Assembly (NCBI RefSeq): GCF_018139625.1
Contig: NZ_JAGSOH010000047.1
Coordinates: 1 to 50,301 of the forward strand
Direction of reading: 5' to 3'
Length of the DNA: 50,301 bases
Source: Actinospica acidithermotolerans
GTDB lineage: Bacteria; Actinomycetota; Actinomycetes; Streptomycetales; Catenulisporaceae
Shown: piece after piece, positions 6,154 to 45,679 of the stretch
How the letters are laid out: each line of letters starts with the position of its first letter
Position numbering within the stretch: position 1 is the stretch's first letter
The notes under the pieces: model-generated
The model's input: the letters and a program-made list of their open reading frames with translations, nothing else
Database searches by the model: none
Told to the model about the DNA's origin: nothing
Made by a program: the position numbers and the translations under genes

Positions 6154-6657
6154 TCAGCTCCTCTCGTCGGCGCCGGCCTCCGGGTCGGGCGACCCGGAGC
6201 CGTTCTCGGGAAACCCCGATTCGTCCTCGGGGACGAGGTGGACGGCGGCCTCCTCGGCGGAGGCCGCGCCGCCGTCGCGCCCGACCTCCCGGGCGAACTG
6301 GCGCGGCGCGGCCGCGTCCACGGAAAGGGCCCCCTCGTCGGCCGCGACCAGGCGCCCGGCGCGCTCGGCGTCGACCGGCGCCGGGTTGCGCGGGTCCTGC
6401 TCGGGCACTTCCTGCGCGAGGCGCTGGTCGAGGGTCTCGCCCTGCCGCGCCTCGGCCTCCGTCACCCCGAAGCGCTCGGAGGCGGGATGCCGCTCGGGCG
6501 GGCTGATCCCGGTGTCGAGCGGGTCCTGCGCCAGATCGTCGCTCTCCAGCGTCTCCGAGGGCTGCAGAACGCCCTCGTCCTCCGGCACGTCCTGGGTCTC
6601 CAGCCCCTCGACGTCCGTGCGCTGCTCCGTCTGGTCGTGCTGATCCTGCGTGCTCAT
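6154..6657 (-). CDS. DUF5709-like acidic protein
   Basis: A 167-residue acidic protein with motifs I recognise from the actinobacterial DUF5709 family: LESDDLAQDPLDTGISPPER, then a GVT...GETLDQRLAQEVPE stretch and an AGRLVA block near residue 120. It lacks membrane segments and catalytic signatures. It lies 52 bases downstream of the sigma-factor gene on the same strand, probably in one transcript. Family members commonly occur next to stress-response genes and their role is not known. The ATG at 6657 is the only reasonable start. Confidence 0.7.
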   Translation of the reverse strand: MSTQDQHDQTEQRTDVEGLETQDVPEDEGVLQPSETLESDDLAQDPLDTGISPPERHPASERFGVTEAEARQGETLDQRLAQEVPEQDPRNPAPVDAERAGRLVAADEGALSVDAAAPRQFAREVGRDGGAASAEEAAVHLVPEDESGFPENGSGSPDPEAGADERS

Positions 6658-6709
6658 GGTGCCACTCCCCGATCACTCCGCCGGTCGCCGGTCGTCGGTC
6701 GCCGGTCGA

Positions 6710-7525
6710 TCAGTCGCCGAATCCGTCCCGCAGCCGGGCGAGTATCTTCGCGATCAGCCGGGAGACCTGCATCTGCGATATGCCGAGCTGCTCGCCGATC
6801 TCGGACTGGGTCATGCCGCGGAAGAAGCGCATCAGCAGGATCCGCTTGTCCCGCTCGCCGAGCTCGTCCACCAGGCCGCGCAGCACCTCGCGGTCGACGG
6901 CCAGGTCGAAGCCGGGGTCCTCGTCGCCGATCATCTCGCCCAGGCTCGCGCCGCCCTCGGCGCTCTCGCGGCCGATCGGGCGGTCCAGCGAGGCGGTGCG
7001 GTAGGCCTCGGAGGCGTCCAGCGCCTCGATCAGCTCCTCCGTCTCGACGCCGAGGCGCTCGGCGAGCTCGGACAGCGACGGTCCGCGGCCCAGCTCGGCG
7101 GTGAGCGCGTCGGCCGCCTTGTGCATGGCGCCGGTCAGCTCCTGCATGTGCCGCGGGACGTGGACGCACCACGTCGCGTCGCGGAAATAGCGTTTGATCT
7201 CGCCGACGATCATCGGGGTCGCGTAGCCGAGGAAGCCCGTGCCGTGCTCGGGATCGAAGTTGTCGACGGCCTTGACCAGGCCGAGGTAGGCGACCTGCTC
7301 GAAGTCCTCGGTCGTGGAACCGCGGGTGCTGTAGCGGCGGGCGATGTGCCGCGCGTACTGCATGTGGTCCTCGACCACCTCGTCGCGCAGGCGCTCCCGC
7401 TCCGGGTCGCCCGCAGGCAGCGCCGCCATCAGCCGAAGCACGCGCATCGTCTCCGCGCGCTGCGCCTCGCGTTCGGCCGGCAACGGCCGGGAAGCGGATA
7501 CCTCTTTCAGGACACCGGTGGTCAC
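6710..7525 (-). CDS. RNA polymerase sigma factor, SigB/SigF/SigG family
   Basis: A 271-residue group 3 sigma factor that should direct RNA polymerase to GTTT-N15-GGGTA promoters. Region 2 spans about residues 55-120 (STTEDFEQVAYLGLVKAVDN, then GYATPMIVGEIKRYFRD), region 3 about 130-185 and region 4 about 215-262 (LLMRFFRGMTQSEIGEQLGI, then SQMQVSRL). The GTG start at 7525 overlaps the Shine-Dalgarno region at the end of the upstream HAD gene (GGAGG), 3 bases from its stop, so the two are one operon. Matching promoters occur upstream of about twenty units here, and a likely one precedes its own operon, suggesting autoregulation. Which SigB paralog it is cannot be told. Confidence 0.93.
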   Translation of the reverse strand: MTTGVLKEVSASRPLPAEREAQRAETMRVLRLMAALPAGDPERERLRDEVVEDHMQYARHIARRYSTRGSTTEDFEQVAYLGLVKAVDNFDPEHGTGFLGYATPMIVGEIKRYFRDATWCVHVPRHMQELTGAMHKAADALTAELGRGPSLSELAERLGVETEELIEALDASEAYRTASLDRPIGRESAEGGASLGEMIGDEDPGFDLAVDREVLRGLVDELGERDKRILLMRFFRGMTQSEIGEQLGISQMQVSRLIAKILARLRDGFGD

Positions 7526-33498: not shown

Positions 33499-33551
33499 TT
33501 CTCGCAAAAGCGAAGCAAGAATCCGCACCGACCCGGGACCCAAGGACGAGG

Positions 33552-33726
33552 CGAATATCGACACCAGCCCGGTCAGAGGGCGAGGTGAAATTTCGCACGA
33601 GCCCCGAGCCAGAGAACGAAGTGAAATATTGCACCAGCCCCGAGCCACATGGCTGGGTGAAATTTCGCATCGGCAATCACCGAACCTAGCCTGAGACCGT
33701 GACCGTACGCGAGGCGAAATTTCGCA
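33552..33726. repeat. Array of GAAATTTC palindrome-containing repeats
   Basis: TGAAATTTCGCA or close variants start at 33586, 33622, 33658 and 33715, plus a degraded one at 33552. The first intervals are 34, 36 and 36 bases. Each is embedded in a longer shared unit containing GCACCAGCCCCGAGCCA. The core is palindromic (GCGAAATTTCGC at 33714-33725). This is unlike a CRISPR, since the whole period is repeat. It may be an operator array or decayed tandem repeat. It falls in the 618-base gap 33499-34116. Confidence 0.75.
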
Positions 33727-33792
33727 TCGGGCACGCGACTGCTGGCCGAAGGTTTCGGTCGAGTCGAGCACCACGCACACACCTCCGCCGAG

Positions 33793-36705: not shown

Positions 36706-37065
36706 TCACCGGTTCAGCGCTGAGTCCACGTCGGGGAAGATCTCGAGCATCTGGTCCAGATTCGTCAGGTCGAGCACCCGGCGGACGGCGTCCGACGGCG
36801 CGGCGATGCGGAACGCACCGCCGCTGCCGCGGGCGCTGCGCTCAGCCTCCACCAGAACGCGTATCCCGCCGGAGTCGCAGAAGCTGACGCCCGCCATGTC
36901 GAGCACGACGGTGCCGTGCTCGGTGGCCGGCAGCAGCCGGGAGCGCAGCCGCCCCACCGCGGCGAAGTCGAGCTCCCCGCTCACCTCGATCACGACGCGG
37001 GCGTGCGCTCCGTGCTGCTCGCGGACCGTCAGTCCGGGCGGCTGCCATGGCTGGGCGGCGTCCAT
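36706..37065 (-). CDS. STAS-domain anti-sigma factor antagonist
   Basis: A 119-residue STAS domain. The phospho-acceptor site is VSFCDSGGIRVLVEA with the expected Ser; the usual DSSGL becomes DSGGI. Residues GSGGAFRIAAPSDAVRRVLD form the last beta/alpha unit. Third gene of an operon after the large kinase fusion and another STAS gene (6 bases away). Expected to bind the HATPase of that fusion when unphosphorylated and release a sigma factor. Confidence 0.88.
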   Translation of the reverse strand: MDAAQPWQPPGLTVREQHGAHARVVIEVSGELDFAAVGRLRSRLLPATEHGTVVLDMAGVSFCDSGGIRVLVEAERSARGSGGAFRIAAPSDAVRRVLDLTNLDQMLEIFPDVDSALNR

Positions 37066-37071
37066 CGAATC

Positions 37072-37395
37072 TCACTCCGTTCCCGGCGAGCCGGCCGCGG
37101 TACGGACCGGAATCACCGTGTCGAGCCCGCTGATGGCGAGGATCGGTGCCAGCAGCGGCGGTACGACGACCTCGATGTCGTCGGCATGCGCGAACAGCAC
37201 GCTCAAGCCCGCGCTGTCCAGGTAAACGACTTCGGAGAGGTCGACGACGAGCAGACCGGCCGAGGGGTCGAGGCCGGCCCGGACGGCAGCGTCGAACTCG
37301 GCGCTGTTGCCGCGGTCGATCTCGCCGACCACGCGCAGCACGGGAGCGCCAGAGGTCGTGCGCGACGTGGAAAGACCGAGACCGGCACCCATCAT
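37072..37395 (-). CDS. STAS-domain anti-sigma factor antagonist
   Basis: A 107-residue STAS protein with EVVYLDSAGLSVLFAHADDI holding the phosphorylatable serine, and VLRVVGEIDRGNSAEFDAAV at the start. Its ATG overlaps the stop of the kinase fusion, so it is translationally coupled to its probable regulator. The two STAS proteins in tandem may have different affinities for the RsbW-type domains. The C-terminus (IPVRTAAGSPGTE) is short of the usual last helix. Confidence 0.88.
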   Translation of the reverse strand: MMGAGLGLSTSRTTSGAPVLRVVGEIDRGNSAEFDAAVRAGLDPSAGLLVVDLSEVVYLDSAGLSVLFAHADDIEVVVPPLLAPILAISGLDTVIPVRTAAGSPGTE

Positions 37396-40300
37396 TCGAC
37401 CTCGATCCTCAGCGAGACGACCGTTCCCTCGTCGCCGCTGTCGACCGACACGTCGTCGACCATCCCGCGCATGACCTCGATGCCGCGGCCGCGGATCCCG
37501 TCGCGGGGACGGCGCGGACTGCGCCAGCTCCCGTCGTCAGCGACACTGACCAGGATGTGCTCGGCGAACGCCTCGGTGCACAGGCGCACGAATCCGTCAG
37601 GGCGGCCGACGTGCGCGTGCTCCACGGCGTTCGCGCAGGCCTCCCCCGCAGCCACCAGCACCCGCTGCGTCGTCTCCCCCGACAGGCCGCAGCGCTCGAG
37701 CCAGCCGCGCAGCCCGTCGCGGACCTGCGCGAGCCGCTCGGCCCGCGCCGGGAAGACCGTCTCGAAGGGGCCGGGGTGCCGGTAGAGCAGGACGGCCACG
37801 TCGTCCTCGTATCCGTCGTGCGGCCGCATCCGCGCCATCACCCGCGCCGCCAGCTCCTCGACGCCGGTGTCCCGCTCCTCGCGCAGGGCCAGGCCCGCCT
37901 TGGCGATCCCGCCGTTGAGCGAGTGCCGGCGGCGCTCGACGAGGCCGTCGGTGTAGAGCAGTAGCGTGGCGCGCGGCGGCACGAGCTCGGAGGCGCACGG
38001 CCGCGGCGCGGCCGGACGCACGGCGAGCGGGAACGAACGCGCCTGCTCCAGCAGGTCCATCCCGCCGTCCGCGCGGGCGAGGATGCCCGGCGGGTGACCC
38101 GCGCTGGAGTAGGTGAGCAATCCGGTGAGCGGGTCGAGCACGGCGCAGAACACGGTGGTGCACAGCGCGCCGGAGACCCCTGCGGCGAAGCGGTCGAGCG
38201 CGTTCAGCACGCGACCCGGATTCTCCGGGTCCTGCAGCAGGAGCGCCCGGCAGGCGCTGCGCAGCTGGCCCATCACGGTGGCCGCCTCGAGCCCGCGGCC
38301 GACGCAGTCCCCGACGACGACGCCGATCCGGCCGTCCGGCAGTTCGACCGTGTCGTACCAGTCGCCGCCGACCTCCAGCGGCCGGGCGGCCGGCTCATAC
38401 CGGACGGCGAACCCGGGTGGCAGCGCGGACGGGCCGAGGATCGCGCGTTGCAGGGCGAGGGCCGTCTCGCGCTGCTCGTCGATCTGGTGCGCGCGGCGCA
38501 GACCCTGGGTCAGGTGCCCGGCCAGCACGGACAGCAGCAGCCGGTCCTGCTCGCTGAACGGGCGGCGGTCGATGGCGAGCCAGAGCACGAGGATGCCGCG
38601 CGGCCCCTCCAGCGAGACGCCGACGCCGCCCTGCGCCCGCAGGTCCCTGCGGGCCACCAGGGGCGGGCCGTCGCGCAGGTCGATCAGCGTGTCGCGCAGG
38701 CCGCCTTCGAGCGTCTCCCAGCCCACGCCGGCGGGCGCCGCGGTGATGGTCGGCACGTCGCTGCCCGGCGGGAAGAGCGCGCCCAGCACGCGTTCCGCGC
38801 CCCAGAGCGTGCGGACCTCCTCGACCGCGCCGCGCAGCGCCTGGTCGAGGTCGCCGGAGCGGGAGAGTCGCAGGCTGACGGCGGCCACCGCGGCGTCGCG
38901 CTGGACCGCGTAGTGCTCCGCGGTCACGTCGCGGAAGGTGCCGACGCTCATCCGGCGGCCGTTCTCCGGGTCGACGATCCCGGTGAAGGTCGCGGCGACC
39001 CACAGACGCCGGCCGTCCCGATGGGTGACCGGCACGGTGCAGCTGCCCGAGTCCTCGTTCAGGAAGCGGGCGATCGCGTCGCCGAAGAGCCGGTCGGCCT
39101 CCGCGTCGACCTCCGGATCGGGCCACCACGGGTAGCGCGCGCGATAGGGCAGGCCCTCCGGTCCGTAGCCCAGGATCTCGGTGAAGGCCGCGTTCGTCTC
39201 CATGATCGTGCCGTCCTCGTCGGCGACGAAGAACGCGTCGTGCAGCGTCTCGACCAGCGCGTTGCGCCAGCGGGCGTGGTGGCCGCGCAGCCGCGCGAGC
39301 TCGATGATCGCGCGCACTCGGGCCAGCAGCTCGGCAGCGCTGAACGGCTTGGTCAGATAATCGTCGGCGCCGGCCTCGAGGCCCTCGATCGACGCCTCGG
39401 GTTCGGCGAGCGCGGACAGCAGCAGCACCGGGACACTCGTCGTGCGCTGCTCCCGGCGGAGCGCGGCGACGATGTCGAGCCCGCTCACGCCCGCCATCAT
39501 CACGTCGCTGACGACCAGGTCGGGCTTCCAGTGCCTGAGCGCTTCGAGGGCGCTCGCGCCGTCGCCGAGCGCGCTGACCTGGTAGCCGGCTCCGCTCAGC
39601 AGCCGGGCGAGGTACTCGCGCATGTCGGCGTTGTCGTCGACGCCAAGGACGTGCGCCGGCACCGCCGTCCCGGCGACGGCGGACACGACCGGCTCGGCCT
39701 CCTCGACCTCCGGCAGCCAGCGCAGCGCCTCGTGGACGAACGCGTCGGCGGTCGAGTCGCCCGGCGCCGCCCCGGCCTCGTCCGCCGCGGCCACCGCGTC
39801 CGGGGGCAGGTGGACCCGCCCGAACGGGATGCAGACGGTGAACTCGGTGCCCACGCCCTCGGCGGAGGTCGCCGAGATGGTGCCGCCGTGCAGCGCCACG
39901 AGTTCCTTGACCAGCGCGAGGCCGATGCCGCTGCCCTCGTTCGAGCGGGACCTGGCGCTCTCGATCCGGTGGAAGCGCTCGAACAGGCGCGGCAGCTCGT
40001 GCTCGGGGACGCCGATGCCGGTATCCGCGACCGTCACCAGCGCGTGGCCGCCCTCGGCGCGCACCGCGACCCGGACCGAGCCGTCGAAGGTGAACTTCAG
40101 CGCGTTGCTGAGCAGATTGAGGACGATCTTCTCCCACAGCGCGCGGTCCACGTAGACCGGCTCGGGCAGCGGCGGGCAGTCCACCTCGAAGCCGAGCCCG
40201 CCCCGCTCCATCGCCGAGCGGAACACGCTGGCCAGCTCCGCGGTGAGCGCGGACAGGTCGACCGGGGCGAAGCGCGCGCCCATCCGGCCGGCCTCGATCC

Positions 40301-41531
40301 GCGAGAAGTCGAGCAGGGTGTTGACGAGCTTGCCGAGCCGCAGGCCGTTGCGGCGCACCATCTCGAGTTCCTCGCGGGTGCGCGGATCCGCGTCGGCCAG
40401 CCGGGTGCGCAGCTCCTCGACCGGGCCCATGATCAGGGTGAGCGGGGTGCGGAACTCGTGGCTGACGTTCGAGAAGAACGCGGTCTTCGCCGTGTCGAGC
40501 ACGGTCAGCTCCTCGGCGCGCCGCTGCTGGGCCAGGGAGGTCCGGGCGGTGGCGATCCCGGTGGCGACGTGACCGGCCGTCAGCTCGATGAAGGAGCGGT
40601 ACGCCTTGTCCAGCGGCCGGTAGCGGTTGACCGCGGCGACCAGGAAGCCGATGGGCTCGCCGCCGCGGCCCGGCAGCGGCTGCACGATTGCGCGAACCGG
40701 CGGCTCGCTCCAGCCGCCGGTGGGCAGCGGCTCAGGACCGCGGTCTTCGAGCTCGACGACGCTCGCCTCGCCCTTGGCCGCCGCGGCCGCCGGCCAGGCC
40801 GCCCCCGTGTCGGTGAGCGGGAGCACCGTGGGCGCCGACGGGTGGTTCGGGGCGATGCCGCTGGTCGCGGCGAGCCGCGCGGCGCCGTCGTCGAACAGGT
40901 AGAAGAGGGCGAACGGGAAGCTGCGGTCGTAGCGCCCGAACTGCTGGGCCGCGAAGGTGAGCATCTCCTGCTCGGAGCGCACCGCGGAGGCCGCGCCGAG
41001 GTCGCGCAGCATCGCCATCCGCCGCTCGCCGACGACCCGCTCGGTCTCCTCGCTGACCACGCAAAGCATCCCGACGACGGCGTCCTCGTCGTCGCGCAGC
41101 GGGCTGTAGGAGAAGGTGTGGTAGGTCTCCTCGCGGAAGCCGGACCGCTCCAGGAACAGCAGCAGTGCCTCGTCCCAGGTCGACGCGCCGGTCTCCAGGA
41201 CGCTGCGGATCCGCGGCCAGACCTCCGGCCACACCTCGGCCCACACCTCGTTGGCCGGGCGCCCGAGCGCCCAGGGGTACTTGCGGCCGAGGGTGTCGTG
41301 CCGGTACGCGGCGTTGCAGAAAAAGGTCAGCTCAGGACCCCAGGCCATCCACATCGGGAAGCGCGAGGTCAGCAGGATGCCGAGCGCGGTGCGCAGGCTC
41401 TGCGGCCAGCCCTCGGGCGCCCCGAGCCCGGTGGCCGCCCAGTCGACCGCCGCGAGGTCGGGGCCCACCACGTCGTCGAGGGAGAAGATGTCGAGCCGCG
41501 CGGCATCCTCTTCCCCGGCGCTATCCGGCAT
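37392..41531 (-). CDS. Hybrid sensor kinase / PP2C phosphatase / anti-sigma kinase fusion
   Basis: A 1379-residue cytosolic protein joining two signalling schemes. In order: PAS-like domain (1-165), GAF-like (185-330), HisKA with H358 (NVSHEFRTPLTLIMG), HATPase (N476, DTGIGVPE, GSGIGLALVK; 460-570), a receiver with D676 and K728 (628-742), PAS (755-875), GAF (880-1010), SpoIIE/PP2C phosphatase (1020-1250, D1057 in GGDWYD, D1075, D1195 in YTDGL, D1243-1244) and an RsbW-type HATPase (1260-1379, N1301 in EACANAVEHA). All key residues are present. A weak SigB-type promoter lies at 41631. Expected to act on the two STAS proteins encoded next. Confidence 0.93.
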   Translation of the reverse strand: MPDSAGEEDAARLDIFSLDDVVGPDLAAVDWAATGLGAPEGWPQSLRTALGILLTSRFPMWMAWGPELTFFCNAAYRHDTLGRKYPWALGRPANEVWAEVWPEVWPRIRSVLETGASTWDEALLLFLERSGFREETYHTFSYSPLRDDEDAVVGMLCVVSEETERVVGERRMAMLRDLGAASAVRSEQEMLTFAAQQFGRYDRSFPFALFYLFDDGAARLAATSGIAPNHPSAPTVLPLTDTGAAWPAAAAAKGEASVVELEDRGPEPLPTGGWSEPPVRAIVQPLPGRGGEPIGFLVAAVNRYRPLDKAYRSFIELTAGHVATGIATARTSLAQQRRAEELTVLDTAKTAFFSNVSHEFRTPLTLIMGPVEELRTRLADADPRTREELEMVRRNGLRLGKLVNTLLDFSRIEAGRMGARFAPVDLSALTAELASVFRSAMERGGLGFEVDCPPLPEPVYVDRALWEKIVLNLLSNALKFTFDGSVRVAVRAEGGHALVTVADTGIGVPEHELPRLFERFHRIESARSRSNEGSGIGLALVKELVALHGGTISATSAEGVGTEFTVCIPFGRVHLPPDAVAAADEAGAAPGDSTADAFVHEALRWLPEVEEAEPVVSAVAGTAVPAHVLGVDDNADMREYLARLLSGAGYQVSALGDGASALEALRHWKPDLVVSDVMMAGVSGLDIVAALRREQRTTSVPVLLLSALAEPEASIEGLEAGADDYLTKPFSAAELLARVRAIIELARLRGHHARWRNALVETLHDAFFVADEDGTIMETNAAFTEILGYGPEGLPYRARYPWWPDPEVDAEADRLFGDAIARFLNEDSGSCTVPVTHRDGRRLWVAATFTGIVDPENGRRMSVGTFRDVTAEHYAVQRDAAVAAVSLRLSRSGDLDQALRGAVEEVRTLWGAERVLGALFPPGSDVPTITAAPAGVGWETLEGGLRDTLIDLRDGPPLVARRDLRAQGGVGVSLEGPRGILVLWLAIDRRPFSEQDRLLLSVLAGHLTQGLRRAHQIDEQRETALALQRAILGPSALPPGFAVRYEPAARPLEVGGDWYDTVELPDGRIGVVVGDCVGRGLEAATVMGQLRSACRALLLQDPENPGRVLNALDRFAAGVSGALCTTVFCAVLDPLTGLLTYSSAGHPPGILARADGGMDLLEQARSFPLAVRPAAPRPCASELVPPRATLLLYTDGLVERRRHSLNGGIAKAGLALREERDTGVEELAARVMARMRPHDGYEDDVAVLLYRHPGPFETVFPARAERLAQVRDGLRGWLERCGLSGETTQRVLVAAGEACANAVEHAHVGRPDGFVRLCTEAFAEHILVSVADDGSWRSPRRPRDGIRGRGIEVMRGMVDDVSVDSGDEGTVVSLRIEVE

Positions 41532-41630
41532 CTTCCCCAGCCTCCAACGGGTCCGCTTTTCGACGCCTGCGCCGCCGCCTGCCGCCGGGATCCCGGCGAG
41601 GGGCGGCGGAGTGATCGTCGGGCGCCCGAG

Positions 41631-41654
41631 TGCCCGGTGCGCGCCTGCTCAAAC
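41631..41654 (-). promoter_or_regulatory. SigB/SigF-type promoter for the kinase/STAS operon
   Basis: Minus strand GTTT, 14 bases, GGGCAC, about 100 bases before the fusion-kinase start, consistent with feedback by the sigma factor it controls. Confidence 0.45.
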
Positions 41655-41704
41655 CGCACCGGAGAATCGACCCGGCGCTCTTGGAGTCAGCGGCCGGTGC
41701 GCCT

Positions 41705-42313
41705 TCAGGCCGTTGCCGCGCTGTGCGCCTCCGTGCGCGCGATGTGCCGGAGCAGCGCCCGGAACCCGCTGCGGTACGGCTCGGCCTCCGCGTCGGCGGA
41801 CGGCGTGTCACTGCTCTCGGCCTGCTCACAGGCCCGCATCCCGGCGCGCACCGCGGCGTCCTTGGCCATGCGCAATCCGAGGCGAAGCTGCTCGCCGAGA
41901 TGGTCGATCTCGTCGATCGGACATACCTCGATCAGCGCGGGCAGCAGCAGGGCGTCCTGCCGGGCCACGTGCCCGCGGATGCCGTCGAGCAGACGTGCGA
42001 CGAGTTCCTCCGAATCCGGGCCGGCCGCCGTGCTGTTCTCCACTCTGGCGACGATGCGGGCCACGCCGCGGTCGGCACGGTGCTGGGTGTCCGCGATGCA
42101 CGCGCCTTCAGGCAGCAGCCGGCGCAGCGTCGGGTAGACGTGGCGCTCCTCGGCCTGCGCGTGGATCATGAAGCGGGCGCACAGCTCGTGGAGCAGCGAG
42201 GTCCGCTCGCCGCCGCGGCCCAGGGACATGACACGGGTGACGAGGGTCGCGATCTCGTCGTGCTCGCGGGCGATCTCCGTCGCCGCATTCGCCGTTCCCG
42301 CCATGCCCACCAT
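41705..42313 (-). CDS. Hemerythrin-domain protein (paralog group B)
   Basis: A 202-residue hemerythrin with segments IAREHDEIATLVTRV, FMIHAQAEERHVYPTLRRLL and IRGHVARQDALLLPALIEV providing His/Glu ligands. A C-terminal extension of about 50 residues ends in a basic helix (YRSGFRALLRHIARTEAH). It lies between the RsbA-like gene and the fusion kinase on the same strand, with its own SigB-type promoter. A role as O2/NO input to the partner switch would fit the position, but is untested. Confidence 0.82.
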   Translation of the reverse strand: MVGMAGTANAATEIAREHDEIATLVTRVMSLGRGGERTSLLHELCARFMIHAQAEERHVYPTLRRLLPEGACIADTQHRADRGVARIVARVENSTAAGPDSEELVARLLDGIRGHVARQDALLLPALIEVCPIDEIDHLGEQLRLGLRMAKDAAVRAGMRACEQAESSDTPSADAEAEPYRSGFRALLRHIARTEAHSAATA

Positions 42314-42351
42314 GGTCTCGCACTCCCGTCGCTTTCTCGCGGAACCGACGG

Positions 42352-42376
42352 CTACCCGTTCAATGACGGTACATGC
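42352..42376 (-). promoter_or_regulatory. SigB/SigF-type promoter overlapping a stop codon
   Basis: Minus strand GCAT, 15 bases, GGGTAG; its TAG is the stop of the RsbA-like gene. It drives the hemerythrin at 42313. The same arrangement occurs at 22486. Confidence 0.6.
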
Positions 42377-43323
42377 GCCTGTTCAGGCGAACCGGTGTCG
42401 AGGTACGCCCGGACGGCGGTGCCACCAGGGCCGGTCGAGTGAATGATCAGCAGATCGCAGAGCTGGTTCACGCTCCACAGCCCGGCGCCGCCGTTCGCGG
42501 ACCGCAGATCGGGCCGGCGCCGCCCGACGAGCGGATCCCGGATCACACCCTCGTCGCGCACCTCACACACGGCGTGTCGCGCGCAGCCCCACACCGCCAG
42601 GCTGCCGCCCCCGCCGCCGTGCCGCACGCTGTTGCCCGCCAGCTCGTCCGCCACCAGAACGAAGTCGGCCAGACGCTCGCCATGCAGCCCGAGCCCGGCG
42701 GCGCGCCGACGGATCTCCGCGCGCAGCAGCGGCAACTCGTCGAGTCCGAAGTCGGTGCGGTACAGCGGTGGTCCGAGTCTCGGAAGCGGGGCGTCGAAGC
42801 AGGCGGTCCCGCCGTCCGGATCGAACCGCCCGCACGCGGCCGGTGGGGCGCAGCCGCGCAGCTCCGGATGCGAAGCGGTCACGCCGGCGAGCACGGGTTC
42901 GGGAAGGGCCGCGTCGTAGGGACAGAGCAGCCGCCACGGCGGCCCGGCCTCGAAAGCGGGGTTGACCAGGTGCTCGTGGACCCGGCACTCGCGCAGCTCG
43001 AGCTCGGAGCGGCCGGGCCACGCCAGCTCCCCGACGCCGCGGCACGCCGTGCCGCGCACGGTGTTGCGCTCCACCCAGTCCCGCCAGGCCGGGATGATCC
43101 TGGCCGGGTTGCGGCCGACCGAATCCATGTCCAGATACTCCACGCCCGCCGCCTCGCCCAGCTCCTCCCGCAGCGGCCCCGCGTGCTCCGCGACCGCCGC
43201 GACCATGACGGCCTCCCCGGCCCGCAGCCCCTCGCGCACGAACGATGAGGTCTCCGCGACGAATCCGGCCAGGCCTTCGTAGAGCAGCGCCTCGTGGCGG
43301 AACCGCGACGGCGTCGACGCCAT
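42352..43323 (-). CDS. RsbA-type anti-sigma regulator (MEDS domain + HATPase)
   Basis: A 323-residue protein. The MEDS domain (about 10-165, FRHEALLYEGLAGFVAETSS, then EYLDMDSVGRNPARII and a PYDAALPEPVL section) is a sensing domain first described in methanogen/methylotroph regulators. The C-terminal RsbW-like HATPase (about 205-310) keeps the N-box Asn (ELAGNSVRHG), the G-box (DEGVIRDP) and GGAGLWSVNQLC. Called RsbA-family in actinobacteria: it binds a SigB-type sigma factor and phosphorylates antagonists. The start at 43323 has GGAGGGACGGG. Likely partners are the STAS proteins at 5153 and 36706-37395. Confidence 0.87.
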   Translation of the reverse strand: MASTPSRFRHEALLYEGLAGFVAETSSFVREGLRAGEAVMVAAVAEHAGPLREELGEAAGVEYLDMDSVGRNPARIIPAWRDWVERNTVRGTACRGVGELAWPGRSELELRECRVHEHLVNPAFEAGPPWRLLCPYDAALPEPVLAGVTASHPELRGCAPPAACGRFDPDGGTACFDAPLPRLGPPLYRTDFGLDELPLLRAEIRRRAAGLGLHGERLADFVLVADELAGNSVRHGGGGGSLAVWGCARHAVCEVRDEGVIRDPLVGRRRPDLRSANGGAGLWSVNQLCDLLIIHSTGPGGTAVRAYLDTGSPEQAHVPSLNG

Positions 43324-43346
43324 GGAGCCCGTCCCTCCGTTGCCCG

Positions 43347-43376
43347 GCGCCCCCGGGGCCCGGATCCCGGGGGCGC
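43347..43376 (-). other. Leader hairpin of the RsbA-type gene
   Basis: An 11-bp perfect GC stem (GCGCCCCCGGG and its inverse) with an 8-base loop, between the predicted promoter (43384-43408) and the start codon (43323). It would form at the 5' end of the mRNA and may stabilise it or modulate translation. Confidence 0.5.
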
Positions 43377-43383
43377 GCGCCGG

Positions 43384-43408
43384 GTGCCCGGCTCTCGCCG
43401 CGGCAAAC
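43384..43408 (-). promoter_or_regulatory. SigB/SigF-type promoter of the RsbA-type gene
   Basis: Minus strand GTTT, 15 bases, GGGCAC. Confidence 0.55.
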
Positions 43409-43426
43409 CCGCATGGGCCGGAGGCG

Positions 43427-43698
43427 GAGCGGGCCGCGGCCGGGCGACCAGGCCTCATCCGGCCGGTCGGACCCGTCGATCGAGCGGCCGATCGAGGAGG
43501 CGGCACGCGGCGCTTCCCCGCATGGTTGGGCCGGGCGCGGCCGGGCAACCAGGCCTCATCCAGCCGGTCGGACCCGTCGATCGAGCGGCCCATCGAGGAG
43601 GCGGCACGCGGCGCTCCCCCACATGGTTGGGCCGGGCGCGGTCGGGTAACCGGGGCTCCGCCGGCCGGTCGGACCAGTCGATCCAGGAGGTGGCCATG
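43427..43698. repeat. 101-bp tandem repeat carrying promoter and ribosome-site copies
   Basis: Nearly three copies with a 101-bp period (for example ACCAGGCCTCATCC at about 43448 and 43549). The last copy contains the working promoter and ribosome site of the DUF3040 gene; earlier copies hold decayed versions (GGTT-N15-GGGCAA and GAGGAGGCGGC). It occupies most of the 372-base gap 43324-43695. Confidence 0.85.
43625..43649 (+). promoter_or_regulatory. SigB/SigF-type promoter
   Basis: GGTT, 15 bases, GGGTAA, in the third 101-bp repeat, 46 bases before the DUF3040 start. Confidence 0.5.
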
Positions 43699-44010
43699 GC
43701 GCTCTCGGCCCGGGACCGGCGGATCATCTCCGCCATCGAGCAGCAGCTCGTCGACCGCGATCCGGCGTGGGCGAAACGCTTCGGGCGCAGGCTGCGCCGC
43801 TTCGATCGTCGCGAGAGCGCCGAGCGGCACCCGGCCCGGCGCGTCGCGGGGCTGACCGCGCTGGGTATCGGCTGGTTCATTCTGCTCTGCGTCTGCTCGG
43901 CGCACGGCTTCACCCGGCCGTGGGCGACGGTCGCCGTGGTGGGCACGGGGGCGGCGGTCGGGACGGTGCAGGCGGTGGTGCGCCGCAGGCGCGGGGGCCG
44001 TGGGGTTTGA
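43696..44010 (+). CDS. DUF3040-like membrane protein
   Basis: A 104-residue protein with N-terminal MALSARDRRIISAIEQQLVD, the hallmark opening of DUF3040 (usually LSEREQRLLEEIE..L). A basic linker is followed by two membrane helices at about 50-66 and 74-92, ending in a basic tail. GGAGG precedes the ATG. Typically a small cell-envelope protein of actinobacteria; function unknown. The gene end carries the -35 of the next promoter. Confidence 0.8.
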   Translation: MALSARDRRIISAIEQQLVDRDPAWAKRFGRRLRRFDRRESAERHPARRVAGLTALGIGWFILLCVCSAHGFTRPWATVAVVGTGAAVGTVQAVVRRRRGGRGV

Positions 44011-44028
44011 TCCCGGGCAGCCGGGCAA
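44005..44028 (+). promoter_or_regulatory. SigB/SigF-type promoter
   Basis: GTTT, 14 bases, GGGCAA; the -35 overlaps the last codons of DUF3040. It drives the small hydrophobic protein at 44117. Confidence 0.5.
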
Positions 44029-44116
44029 CCCGCGAGCTGCGGATTCGAACCGATTTTCGGACCCGCACCCCGGCCGTCCGCGTTCGGGCGGCCACCGAAG
44101 GCAAAGGAGTGCCGAA

Positions 44117-44290
44117 ATGGGTGTCATCCTGCTCGTCCTGCTGCTCGCCCTCGTGCTCGGCGGACTCGGATTCGCCGTGCACGTGCTGTGGTGGATAGCA
44201 CTGGCCGTCCTCGTCGTCTGGCTGATCGGCTTCGTCGTCGAACGCGGAGCCGCGTCCGGCAGTCGTCGGCGCTGGTACGGCAGGTGGTAG
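44117..44290 (+). CDS. Small hydrophobic membrane protein
   Basis: A 57-residue protein that is nearly all membrane (about 2-42: VILLVLLLALVLGGLGFAVH, then WWIALAVLVVWLIGFV), ending in a short basic tail. Small proteins of this type are common in Streptomyces and relatives. The AAAGGAG site precedes the ATG. Function unknown; it could be an envelope stress peptide. It follows a SigB-type promoter and is separate from the hemerythrin downstream. Confidence 0.75.
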   Translation: MGVILLVLLLALVLGGLGFAVHVLWWIALAVLVVWLIGFVVERGAASGSRRRWYGRW

Positions 44291-44433
44291 CAGTGGAGGG
44301 CGGTCCCGCGGACCCGACGTAAAATGCGGATGAAACGGGTGTTTTGCCCGCGAGCGCCGGGACTGCCGGGCCGCCGCCCACGCTCCCGCCGCGCGGGCGG
44401 CCCGGAGCATCGGCTCTCAAGGAGGTGAACTGG

Positions 44434-45018
44434 ATGACTCAGGCGCATCAGGAACGACTGCAGGCCGACGAACTGCCCGCGGGCAGCGTCGTCTCCGTGC
44501 TGCTGGAACAGCACGCGAAGATCAGGGAACTGTTCGAGCAGACCGCCGAGGCGCGCGGTGCGGCCCGCCGTCGGGCCTTCGACGAACTGCGCGAGCTGCT
44601 CGCGGTGCACGAGGCCGGGGAGGAGATCGTGGTGCGGCCGGTGACGAAGGCCGCCGCGGACGGCAAGATCGCCGACGAGCGCAACCACGAGGAGAAGGAG
44701 GCGGCCAAGGAGCTCGCCGAGCTCGAGAGCCGCGACATCTCCAGCCGCGGGTTCGCCGAATCGCTGGCCGAACTCGAGTCCGACGTATCGGATCACGCCG
44801 ACGCGGAGGAACGTGACGAGTTCCCGTACCTGCTGTCGGCGGTCGATCAGGACACGCAGATGAAGATGGGTGCGCGGCTGCTGAAGGTGCAGCGCGCGGC
44901 GCCGACGCATCCGCACCCGACCGCGGCCGGATCCCCCACCGCGCAGGCGGTCCTCGGACCGTTCGCCGCACTGCTGGACCGTGCCCGCGACGCCTTCCGC
45001 AAGCCGGCCGACGGCTGA
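44434..45018 (+). CDS. Hemerythrin-domain (HHE) protein
   Basis: A 194-residue HHE protein paralogous to 3120-3716. Ligand segments: LLEQHAKIRELFEQTA, LAVHEAGEEIVVRPVT, ERNHEEKEAAKELAELE and DHADAEERDEFPYLL. The C-terminus shares THPHPTAAGSPTAQAVLGPF with the paralog. AAGGAGGTGAAC is an optimal ribosome site. The 3' end is duplicated twice downstream (92-bp repeats), each copy keeping a stop. Upstream A/T-rich bases 44320-44340 may hold a promoter, but no clear SigB-type motif. Confidence 0.88.
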   Translation: MTQAHQERLQADELPAGSVVSVLLEQHAKIRELFEQTAEARGAARRRAFDELRELLAVHEAGEEIVVRPVTKAAADGKIADERNHEEKEAAKELAELESRDISSRGFAESLAELESDVSDHADAEERDEFPYLLSAVDQDTQMKMGARLLKVQRAAPTHPHPTAAGSPTAQAVLGPFAALLDRARDAFRKPADG

Positions 45019-45205
45019 GCCTCCGCGTATCCCGCAGGCCGGTCCTCGGACCGTTCGCCGCACTGCTGGACCGTGCCCGCGACGCCCTCCGCACGCCGAC
45101 CGAGAGCTGAGCGTGCGCGTATCGCGCAGGCCGGTCCTCGGACCATTCGCCGCACTGCTGGACCGGGCCCGCGACGCCCTCCGCAAGCCGACCGAGGGCT
45201 GAGCG
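44945..45205. repeat. 92-bp tandem triplication of a gene 3' end
   Basis: Three copies with a 92-bp period. The first is the coding end of the hemerythrin gene; the others lie beyond its stop. In each copy the same frame still encodes VLGPFAALLDRARDA and a variant tail (FRKPADG, LRTPTES, LRKPTEG) followed by TGA. The period is not a multiple of three. Confidence 0.85.
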
Positions 45206-45232
45206 TCCCCGTATCGCGCGGACTGCGGGCGG

Positions 45233-45679
45233 TCAGCCGGGCGTCGCCGTTGCCGTCGGCAGGGGCTCGATGAGCGTCAGCGTGCCGATTCCCTCCTTCA
45301 CGCCGACCTGCACGTCGCCGACCAGGCTGGAGAGCATCGCCCAGCCGAGCTCGTCGCGGATCGGCCAGCCGAGCGGCGCCCGGGCCCGCACGGTCACGTG
45401 CAGCTCGGCCGGGTACCGGTCGTAGGTCAGCTCCATCGTCTCGGTCGTCGCGGCGGCCGGGACGTCGGCGGCCTGCGCCTCGGCAGCCTGGAAGAACGAG
45501 CTGCACGCCTCGTCCACCGCCAGCCGGAGATCGTTGACCTGCGGCAGCGGCAGGAACAGCAGCGCCCCGACGTGCATGGCCGAGGTGCGGACGAGGGCGA
45601 GGAAGTCCTGATCGGCCAGAAAGGTGATCTGGACCATCCGCACCGGCTCGCCCTCGTCCGCCTCCTGCGTGAAACCCAT
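45233..45679 (-). CDS. RsbW-like anti-sigma/HATPase protein, degenerate
   Basis: A 148-residue paralog of 20404-20787 (shared LPLPQVNDLRLAVDEAC, DELGWAML and GIGTLTLIEPLP). The N-box Asn is replaced (DEACSSFF) and no DxGxG motif is visible, so ATP-dependent kinase activity is doubtful. Start at 45679 gives 14 hydrophilic extra residues; an ATG at 45637 aligns better with the paralog. It probably binds a sigma factor or STAS partner. It converges with the hemerythrin gene and its repeats. Confidence 0.72.
   Translation of the reverse strand: MGFTQEADEGEPVRMVQITFLADQDFLALVRTSAMHVGALLFLPLPQVNDLRLAVDEACSSFFQAAEAQAADVPAAATTETMELTYDRYPAELHVTVRARAPLGWPIRDELGWAMLSSLVGDVQVGVKEGIGTLTLIEPLPTATATPG

Follow-up and report, generated by a model that had tools for sequence, protein, structure and literature searches.

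A conserved actinomycete protein that joins a hybrid histidine kinase to the phosphatase and kinase domains of a partner switch

HsbR of Pseudomonas aeruginosa and CrsR of Shewanella have been described as proteins that carry a receiver, a PP2C phosphatase and an RsbW-type domain on one chain and act on an anti-sigma antagonist (PMC6482189). According to this account, unphosphorylated HsbR phosphorylates HsbA and phosphorylated HsbR dephosphorylates it; no histidine kinase is described on the chain of either protein, and in P. aeruginosa the phosphate reaches HsbR through separate hybrid kinases and HptB. SypE of Vibrio fischeri, which acts on SypA, likewise combines a serine kinase, a receiver and a serine phosphatase, with the kinase domain at the N-terminus, the receiver in the centre and, as described, no histidine kinase on the chain (PMC3610818). 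In RsbK-RsbY of Bacillus cereus and RsfS-RsfR of M. smegmatis, a histidine kinase acts on a receiver-PP2C protein and this in turn on a STAS protein. Here kinase and phosphatase are separate proteins, RsfR and RsbY are described without an RsbW domain, and the two systems have opposite signs, phosphorylation lowering the phosphatase activity of RsfR and raising that of RsbY (PMC10950880). We analysed a 50,301 nucleotide (nt) stretch of the Actinospica acidithermotolerans genome (contig NZ_JAGSOH010000047.1, positions 1 to 50,301; hereafter the window), which encodes a fusion of 1379 amino acids (aa) comprising a hybrid histidine kinase, a PP2C phosphatase and an RsbW-type kinase. The fusion, its parts and the two adjoining STAS genes have the following window positions:

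37392-41531, minus strand: fusion protein of 1379 aa with ATG start (PAS-like, GAF, HisKA, HATPase, receiver, PAS, GAF-like, PP2C, RsbW-type kinase)
39822-40490, minus strand: histidine kinase core, residues 348-570, with H358 (Pfam HisKA and HATPase_c; H358 in 80/80 homologues)
39312-39650, minus strand: receiver, residues 628-740, with D676 (Pfam Response_reg; D632, D633, D676, S706 and K728 each in 80/80)
38436-38552, minus strand: predicted helix of 39 residues, 994-1032, between GAF-like domain and phosphatase (AlphaFold2 model of residues 745-1379)
37776-38339, minus strand: SpoIIE/PP2C phosphatase, residues 1065-1252 (Pfam E 2e-41; 3ke6 phmmer E 1e-24; motif Asp in 80/80)
37407-37754, minus strand: RsbW-type serine kinase/anti-sigma domain, residues 1260-1375 (Pfam HATPase_c_2 E 1e-32; RsbW 6m36; E1297, N1301, D1332, G1348 and G1350 in 80/80)
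37072-37395, minus strand: STAS antagonist 1, 107 aa, predicted phosphosite Ser61; its ATG overlaps the TGA stop of the fusion as ATGA
36706-37065, minus strand: STAS antagonist 2, 119 aa, predicted phosphosite Ser65; begins 6 nt after STAS 1

The initial annotation had described a hybrid kinase with H358 and receiver residue D676, a SpoIIE-type phosphatase and an RsbW-type kinase with their catalytic residues, the receiver lying between histidine kinase and phosphatase, and two STAS antagonists directly after the fusion. A domain search bore out this architecture together with both residue positions, placed the frame on the minus strand, which had been left unstated, and added a PAS-like N-terminus, a first GAF domain, a second PAS domain and a GAF-like domain. 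All Pfam matches of the fusion lie above the curated cut-offs: GAF_2 at 185-326, HisKA at 348-415 (E 6e-18), HATPase_c at 465-570 (5e-33), Response_reg at 628-740 (3e-26), PAS_4 with its best stretch at 761-873, SpoIIE at 1065-1252 and HATPase_c_2 at 1260-1375. PAS_4 matches two stretches of the fusion, of which 761-873 is the better one; because of this second match, and because the best PAS_4 stretch is N-terminal in the homologues L091 (85-181) and L093 (92-185), we call the N-terminus PAS-like. Residues 884-1025 are termed GAF-like because they are folded in the AlphaFold2 model and GAF_2 matches at 1137-1284 ahead of the phosphatase in the homologue L090. The protein is probably cytosolic, as the Pfam matches include no membrane domain. 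A 1347-aa open frame also runs antisense to the fusion (window 38094-42137), so that the length of a reading frame is uninformative at such a G+C content. An artefact of high G+C was ruled out by the domain scores, the third-position G+C of the fusion (0.96) and the homologues, all of which favour the minus-strand frame.

For the conservation analysis, 81 of 100 loci (own locus included) passed the script cut for full-length homologues and 19 were dropped, leaving 80 others to be aligned; most of these belong to the best 80 of 588 relatives and the rest come from sampled genomes up to order level. Among 25 motif positions, picked from known family motifs, 23 were invariant in all 80 homologues. 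These are H358, N476, D503, D632, D633, D676, S706 and K728 in the histidine kinase and receiver, D1057, D1060, D1075, G1078, G1145, D1195, D1243 and D1244 in the PP2C domain, and E1297, N1301, E1304, D1332, G1334, G1348 and G1350 in the serine kinase. Of the other two, G533 is found in 79/80, and D1333, the second residue of the kinase G1 motif, is variable, with Thr in 38 and Ser in 37 of the homologues. A check at motif level gave no sign of inactive phosphatase or kinase domains, which the initial annotation had named as evidence against its interpretation; the absence of any loss at the checked positions rules out a degenerate phosphatase or kinase.

Mean identities to the window protein were 69.3% for the N-terminal segment, 50.4% for GAF, 75.1% for the histidine kinase, 38.1% for the 571-625 linker, 69.0% for the receiver, 56.6% for the second PAS domain, 44.7% for the GAF-like domain, 82.0% for residues 1026-1064, 65.6% for PP2C and 45.5% for the RsbW-type domain. 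The high identity of 1026-1064 is no particular sign of linker function, since the stretch contains the GGDWYD phosphatase motif (D1057/D1060), which lies just ahead of the SpoIIE Pfam match.

The phosphosite motifs of the two window STAS proteins read DSAG and DSGG (Ser61 and Ser65, respectively) and thus offer a phosphorylatable Ser as in the SigB-type partner switch. Within 2.5 kb downstream of the fusion, 77/81 loci (own included) have a STAS frame on the same strand, and 17/81 have two or more. In 73 of the 77 loci the stop of the fusion and a start codon of the STAS frame overlap, either by 4 nt (41/77: ATGA 28, GTGA 11, TTGA 2) or by 1 nt, the ATG beginning on the last base of the stop (32/77). 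Of the 77 first STAS proteins, 76 have Asp-Ser as predicted phosphosite and the remaining one (L015) is incomplete. At this locus the first STAS match falls into two short pieces beside an intact fusion, possibly through a frameshift or a sequencing error. The first STAS protein is nearer to STAS 1 than to STAS 2 in 76 of 77 cases. The non-first STAS matches are heterogeneous (n=18; phosphosite Ser in 16, Thr in one, Ala in one), and STAS 2 is therefore not claimed as a conserved partner.

In Geodermatophilus (L090, 1789 aa) and Blastococcus (L091, 1729 aa) the STAS domain sits on the same chain, at the C-terminus. These proteins (L090:5758-11124 and L091:5914-11100) carry about 165-175 inserted residues including an extra GAF domain, and in each the sensor, the relay, both serine enzymes and the likely substrate are contained within about 1750 residues. 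Gene linkage and occasional fusion strongly support STAS 1 as the predicted substrate of the fusion protein. At a mycobacterial locus (L054) a STAS frame (L054:5606-5965) lies just upstream of the fusion, not downstream, and a search of locus L061 found no STAS frame.

An AlphaFold2 model of residues 745-1379, computed as a single chain from an alignment with 38 homologues, reached a mean predicted local distance difference test score of 89.3 and a predicted template modelling score of 0.69. The 39-residue helix lies in this model ahead of the PP2C domain; a helical-linker mechanism of phosphatase control has been proposed elsewhere (PMC12143880). The best match in the PDB was 3ke6, the RsbU-RsbW pair of Rv1364c from M. 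tuberculosis (Foldseek E 1.6e-23; Z 28.3, 332 aligned residues, root mean square deviation (rmsd) 11.5), which is also the top phmmer match for the PP2C domain and the second for the kinase domain. An rmsd of this size probably reflects two domains that each fit 3ke6 individually but are arranged differently in the model. The last domain matches B. subtilis RsbW 6m37 (Z 18.6, 115 aligned, rmsd 1.5), and SpoIIE, RsbX, RsbW and SpoIIAB are also among the structural matches. Rv1364c resembles the window protein as a fusion of PP2C and RsbW-type kinase; it differs in having, as described, only a PAS sensor without histidine kinase or receiver, and in carrying its STAS domain on its own chain, whereas the window STAS proteins are encoded in separate frames.

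The fusion is not peculiar to its source genome, which homologues in order-level relatives, in wider relatives and in an even draw across the phylum rule out. Among 98 relatives up to order level, a full-length match was present in 16, in one piece in 14 and in two adjoining pieces in two (G008 and G063); full-length homologues in this sample share 60-65% identity, and G004 and G008 have an additional, more divergent match that consists of two pieces in one frame. Most full-length matches from the best 80 of 588 relatives show about 54-64% identity (best segment). In the even draw, which comprised 295 other genomes from the phylum, a continuous full-length match occurred in six, all from the same class (6/25; 0/270 outside it), and three of these six are also in the sample of 98 relatives. 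A genome of another class (G217, locus L112) encodes a more divergent protein with the order histidine kinase, receiver, PP2C, RsbW. Named hosts among the matches listed include Streptomyces, Actinoplanes, Micromonospora, Lentzea, Amycolatopsis, Mycolicibacterium and Mycobacterium. Domain models derived from this same set of sequences recognise the complete order in 87 of 106 frames that contain a histidine kinase ATPase and a receiver, with STAS added in two and an extra GAF domain in one. We conclude that the protein family is real, conserved and little studied, and that it is clearly a variant of the partner switches already known.

The front half of the protein is distributed more widely. 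Proteins from Roseococcus, Azospirillum, Caulobacterales, Acidobacteria, Verrucomicrobia and Planctomycetales bacteria (L093-L096, L098 and L099) align over roughly residues 20-800 with 48-54% identity (best segment) and end in a second kinase module, of which only the ATPase part is recognised in L094. Two actinomycete proteins (L018 and L088) have a C-terminal PP2C domain without an RsbW domain. Since the front half carries other outputs elsewhere, these alignments suggest that the fusion may have arisen by exchange of output modules behind a shared sensor module.

The source genome has 29 SpoIIE matches; 12 of them lie in one open frame with HATPase_c_2 and three with a receiver, matches being paired by contig, strand and frame length; only the 37392-41531 locus combines all three. 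Since kinase-phosphatase fusion is thus ordinary in this genome, the distinctive part is the added histidine kinase and receiver. The premise of the initial annotation that kinase and phosphatase normally come as separate proteins is not supported, given these 12 fusions and Rv1364c, which has both. Its wider interpretation fares better: HsbR (PMC6482189) is a published case of a receiver choosing between kinase and phosphatase within a single protein, SypE (PMC3610818) has a comparable chain, and the proposed mechanism, which has these precedents, is plausible. Novelty is moderate: fused kinase and phosphatase and a receiver-based choice are already known, and the addition here lies in a histidine kinase that shares their chain.

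The order receiver, PP2C, RsbW-type domain is that of HsbR and CrsR, but in the window protein PAS and GAF-like domains lie in between, and HisKA and HATPase_c stand on the same chain. RsbK hybrid kinases are described with a CHASE3 sensor and a C-terminal receiver; the receiver of the window protein is instead followed by 639 residues, and CHASE3 is not among its Pfam matches at E 0.01. The nearest named relative is probably SCO7327 of Streptomyces coelicolor, possibly as an orthologue with a similar PP2C/RsbW tail, as judged by its described type, position and neighbour. It is an actinomycete hybrid histidine kinase, known as OsaD and believed to take part in osmotic sensing (PMC9739823), and counts among three hybrid kinases with cascades described as unclear (PMC9739842). 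Two locus tags away lies SCO7325, an RsbV homologue that takes part in SigB activation (PMC8346170). Among the literature matches listed, no paper describes the exact architecture of histidine kinase, receiver, PP2C and RsbW. An earlier description is possible, because the study of complex hybrid histidine kinases in sigma-B modules by de Been et al. (2011) reportedly covers actinobacterial RsbK-type kinases with variable C-terminal domains.

Most likely, the protein is bifunctional, acting as kinase and as phosphatase on the STAS protein encoded next to it under the control of a histidine-aspartate step in cis. This reading rests on the conserved motifs, on the downstream STAS gene in 77/81 loci with its overlaps, and on the fused STAS in Geodermatophilus and Blastococcus. 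The PAS/GAF front would sense a signal and set the autophosphorylation of H358, from which the phosphoryl group would pass to D676, either within the chain or between the subunits of a dimer. The receiver would then act on the PP2C domain by way of the PAS domain, the GAF-like domain and the 39-residue helix, and may decide whether PP2C dephosphorylates Ser61 of STAS 1 or the RsbW-type domain phosphorylates it. With a phosphorylated receiver the phosphatase would be on, STAS would be free and a SigB-family sigma factor would be released; the second STAS gene may be an accessory or a second branch. We think it probable that the family, which recurs in Actinomycetes, represents a self-contained partner-switch controller with a receiver-set balance of phosphatase and kinase on STAS 1. 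For the sign, a phosphorylated receiver with the phosphatase on, as in HsbR and RsbY, is slightly favoured by analogy. More tentatively, and a little below an even chance, one polypeptide might carry out the full conversion from histidine to aspartate to serine within one dimer, phosphorylation of D676 swapping which serine enzyme reaches the co-translated STAS protein. If so, a one-molecule cascade would be conserved in Actinomycetes, with the substrate also on the chain in Geodermatophilus and Blastococcus, and this would give the working mode of the unexplained SCO7327/OsaD class.

Two upstream neighbours of the fusion and a possible target gene lie in the window:

41705-42313, minus strand: hemerythrin-domain protein, upstream neighbour (Pfam)
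42352-43323, minus strand: RsbA-family anti-sigma protein with MEDS and HATPase_c_2, neighbour (NF041045 above cut-off)
6713-7525, minus strand: SigB/SigF/SigG-family sigma factor, a possible target about 30 kb off (TIGR02980, 272 bits against a cut-off of 234)

Several points weigh against the bifunctional switch. The transfer from H358 to D676, the binding of STAS and both enzyme activities are all predictions from sequence. The RsbW-type domain (45.5%) and the GAF-like domain (44.7%) belong to the less conserved segments, and the conservation figures as a whole are biased upward because the homologues, besides those from the order-level sampled genomes, are mostly the closest matches. Four of the 81 loci are without a separate same-strand STAS frame downstream (L090 and L091, where it is fused, L054 and L061), and the fused STAS of L090 and L091 keeps the Ser, but the preceding Asp is replaced by Ala. 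Seven SigB/F/G-family matches over cut-off were found in the source genome, one of them in the window (6713-7525, minus strand), and none adjoins the fusion locus. On the same side stand M. smegmatis RsfR, an actinomycete receiver-PP2C protein with the reversed sign (PMC10950880), the receiver of the RsbK hybrid kinase, reported as inhibitory and not as a relay step (PMC4574943), and the dedicated kinase RsbW2 of M. smegmatis, described as phosphorylating RsfB without binding SigF. Each of these published cases points to an alternative. If RsfR were the better guide, receiver phosphorylation would lower phosphatase activity, and histidine kinase loss under stress would free STAS and the sigma factor; RsfR is, however, described as receiver and PP2C only, and HsbR and RsbY have the other sign; the reversed sign appears rather unlikely. 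After the model of RsbK, the receiver could only gate or drain the histidine kinase, the PAS and GAF-like domains setting phosphatase and kinase without any histidine-to-serine coupling. The position of the second PAS domain and the GAF-like domain between receiver and phosphatase would suit this, as would RsbP, whose phosphatase is reported to be controlled from a PAS domain without a receiver (PMC12143880). We nevertheless consider it unlikely, given the indirect arguments that receiver and phosphatase occur on one chain with their motif residues in 80/80 homologues and that receiver-controlled PP2C proteins are known.

The example of RsbW2, which does not bind its sigma factor, means that the RsbW domain of the window protein may not be an anti-sigma factor. 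It could serve as STAS kinase only, the sigma factor being held by a separate anti-sigma factor such as the neighbouring RsbA-family protein. The RsbA-family gene upstream fits this arrangement, as does the lack of an adjacent SigB-family gene, the one in the window being about 30 kb off. Set against it are the D3 domains of HsbR and CrsR, which bind RpoS in two-hybrid tests (PMC6482189), and the rarity of the RsbA neighbour, with phmmer matches in 6/100 loci (L001-L020 having only about 1.5 kb of flank); the probability of this division of labour falls just short of even. Finally, STAS could control something other than a sigma factor, for example a cyclase or a polysaccharide system. In the published accounts the target of SypA is unknown and HsbA also binds a diguanylate cyclase (PMC6482189), but the reported role of SCO7325, the RsbV homologue near SCO7327, in SigB activation (PMC8346170) argues for a sigma factor, as far as the presumed orthology holds, and we regard another output as quite improbable.

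With the two-component sensor and both partner-switch enzymes on one chain, receiver control of the balance between kinase and phosphatase could be addressed with one purified protein and one small substrate. For actinomycete hybrid kinases with signalling described as unclear (PMC9739842), the bifunctional switch would supply a working model. The basic picture of partner switching is unchanged by the fusion family.

Stress-type families encoded in the window comprise hemerythrins, RsbA, an MscS-type channel and a PfpI-type protein, and these genes fit a stress role but prove nothing. Upstream of the fusion (window 41705-45679), two hemerythrin-domain proteins accompany the RsbA-family protein, and a weak RsbW-like match under the Pfam cut-off lies at 45233-45679. 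The hemerythrin neighbour recurred as a phmmer match in 2/100 loci, a count which, like that for RsbA, may include the own locus and is limited by the short flanks of L001-L020. A DUF5709 gene lies beside the SigB/F/G-family sigma factor gene (window 6157-7525). Ahead of the fusion, a weak promoter-like site starts 124 nt upstream of its ATG:

41630-41655, minus strand: possible SigB/SigF-type promoter, GGTTT-N15-GGGCAC (weak; not used as evidence)

The strict form of the motif was found in 3/82 upstream regions (shuffled mean 0.14), the source locus not being among them, and a looser form that fits the source locus in 8/82 (shuffled mean 1.82, maximum 4); the 82 regions count the source locus twice, as L001 and as the window. 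Tandem arrays with 90-91% matches occupy 43430-43683 (unit of about 101 nt, 2.5 copies) and 44940-45219 (about 92 nt, 3.1 copies). At 33540-33738 a 36-nt unit occurs in five degenerate copies, which resemble the reference copy at 61-83%; several of them have a GAAATTTCGCA core.

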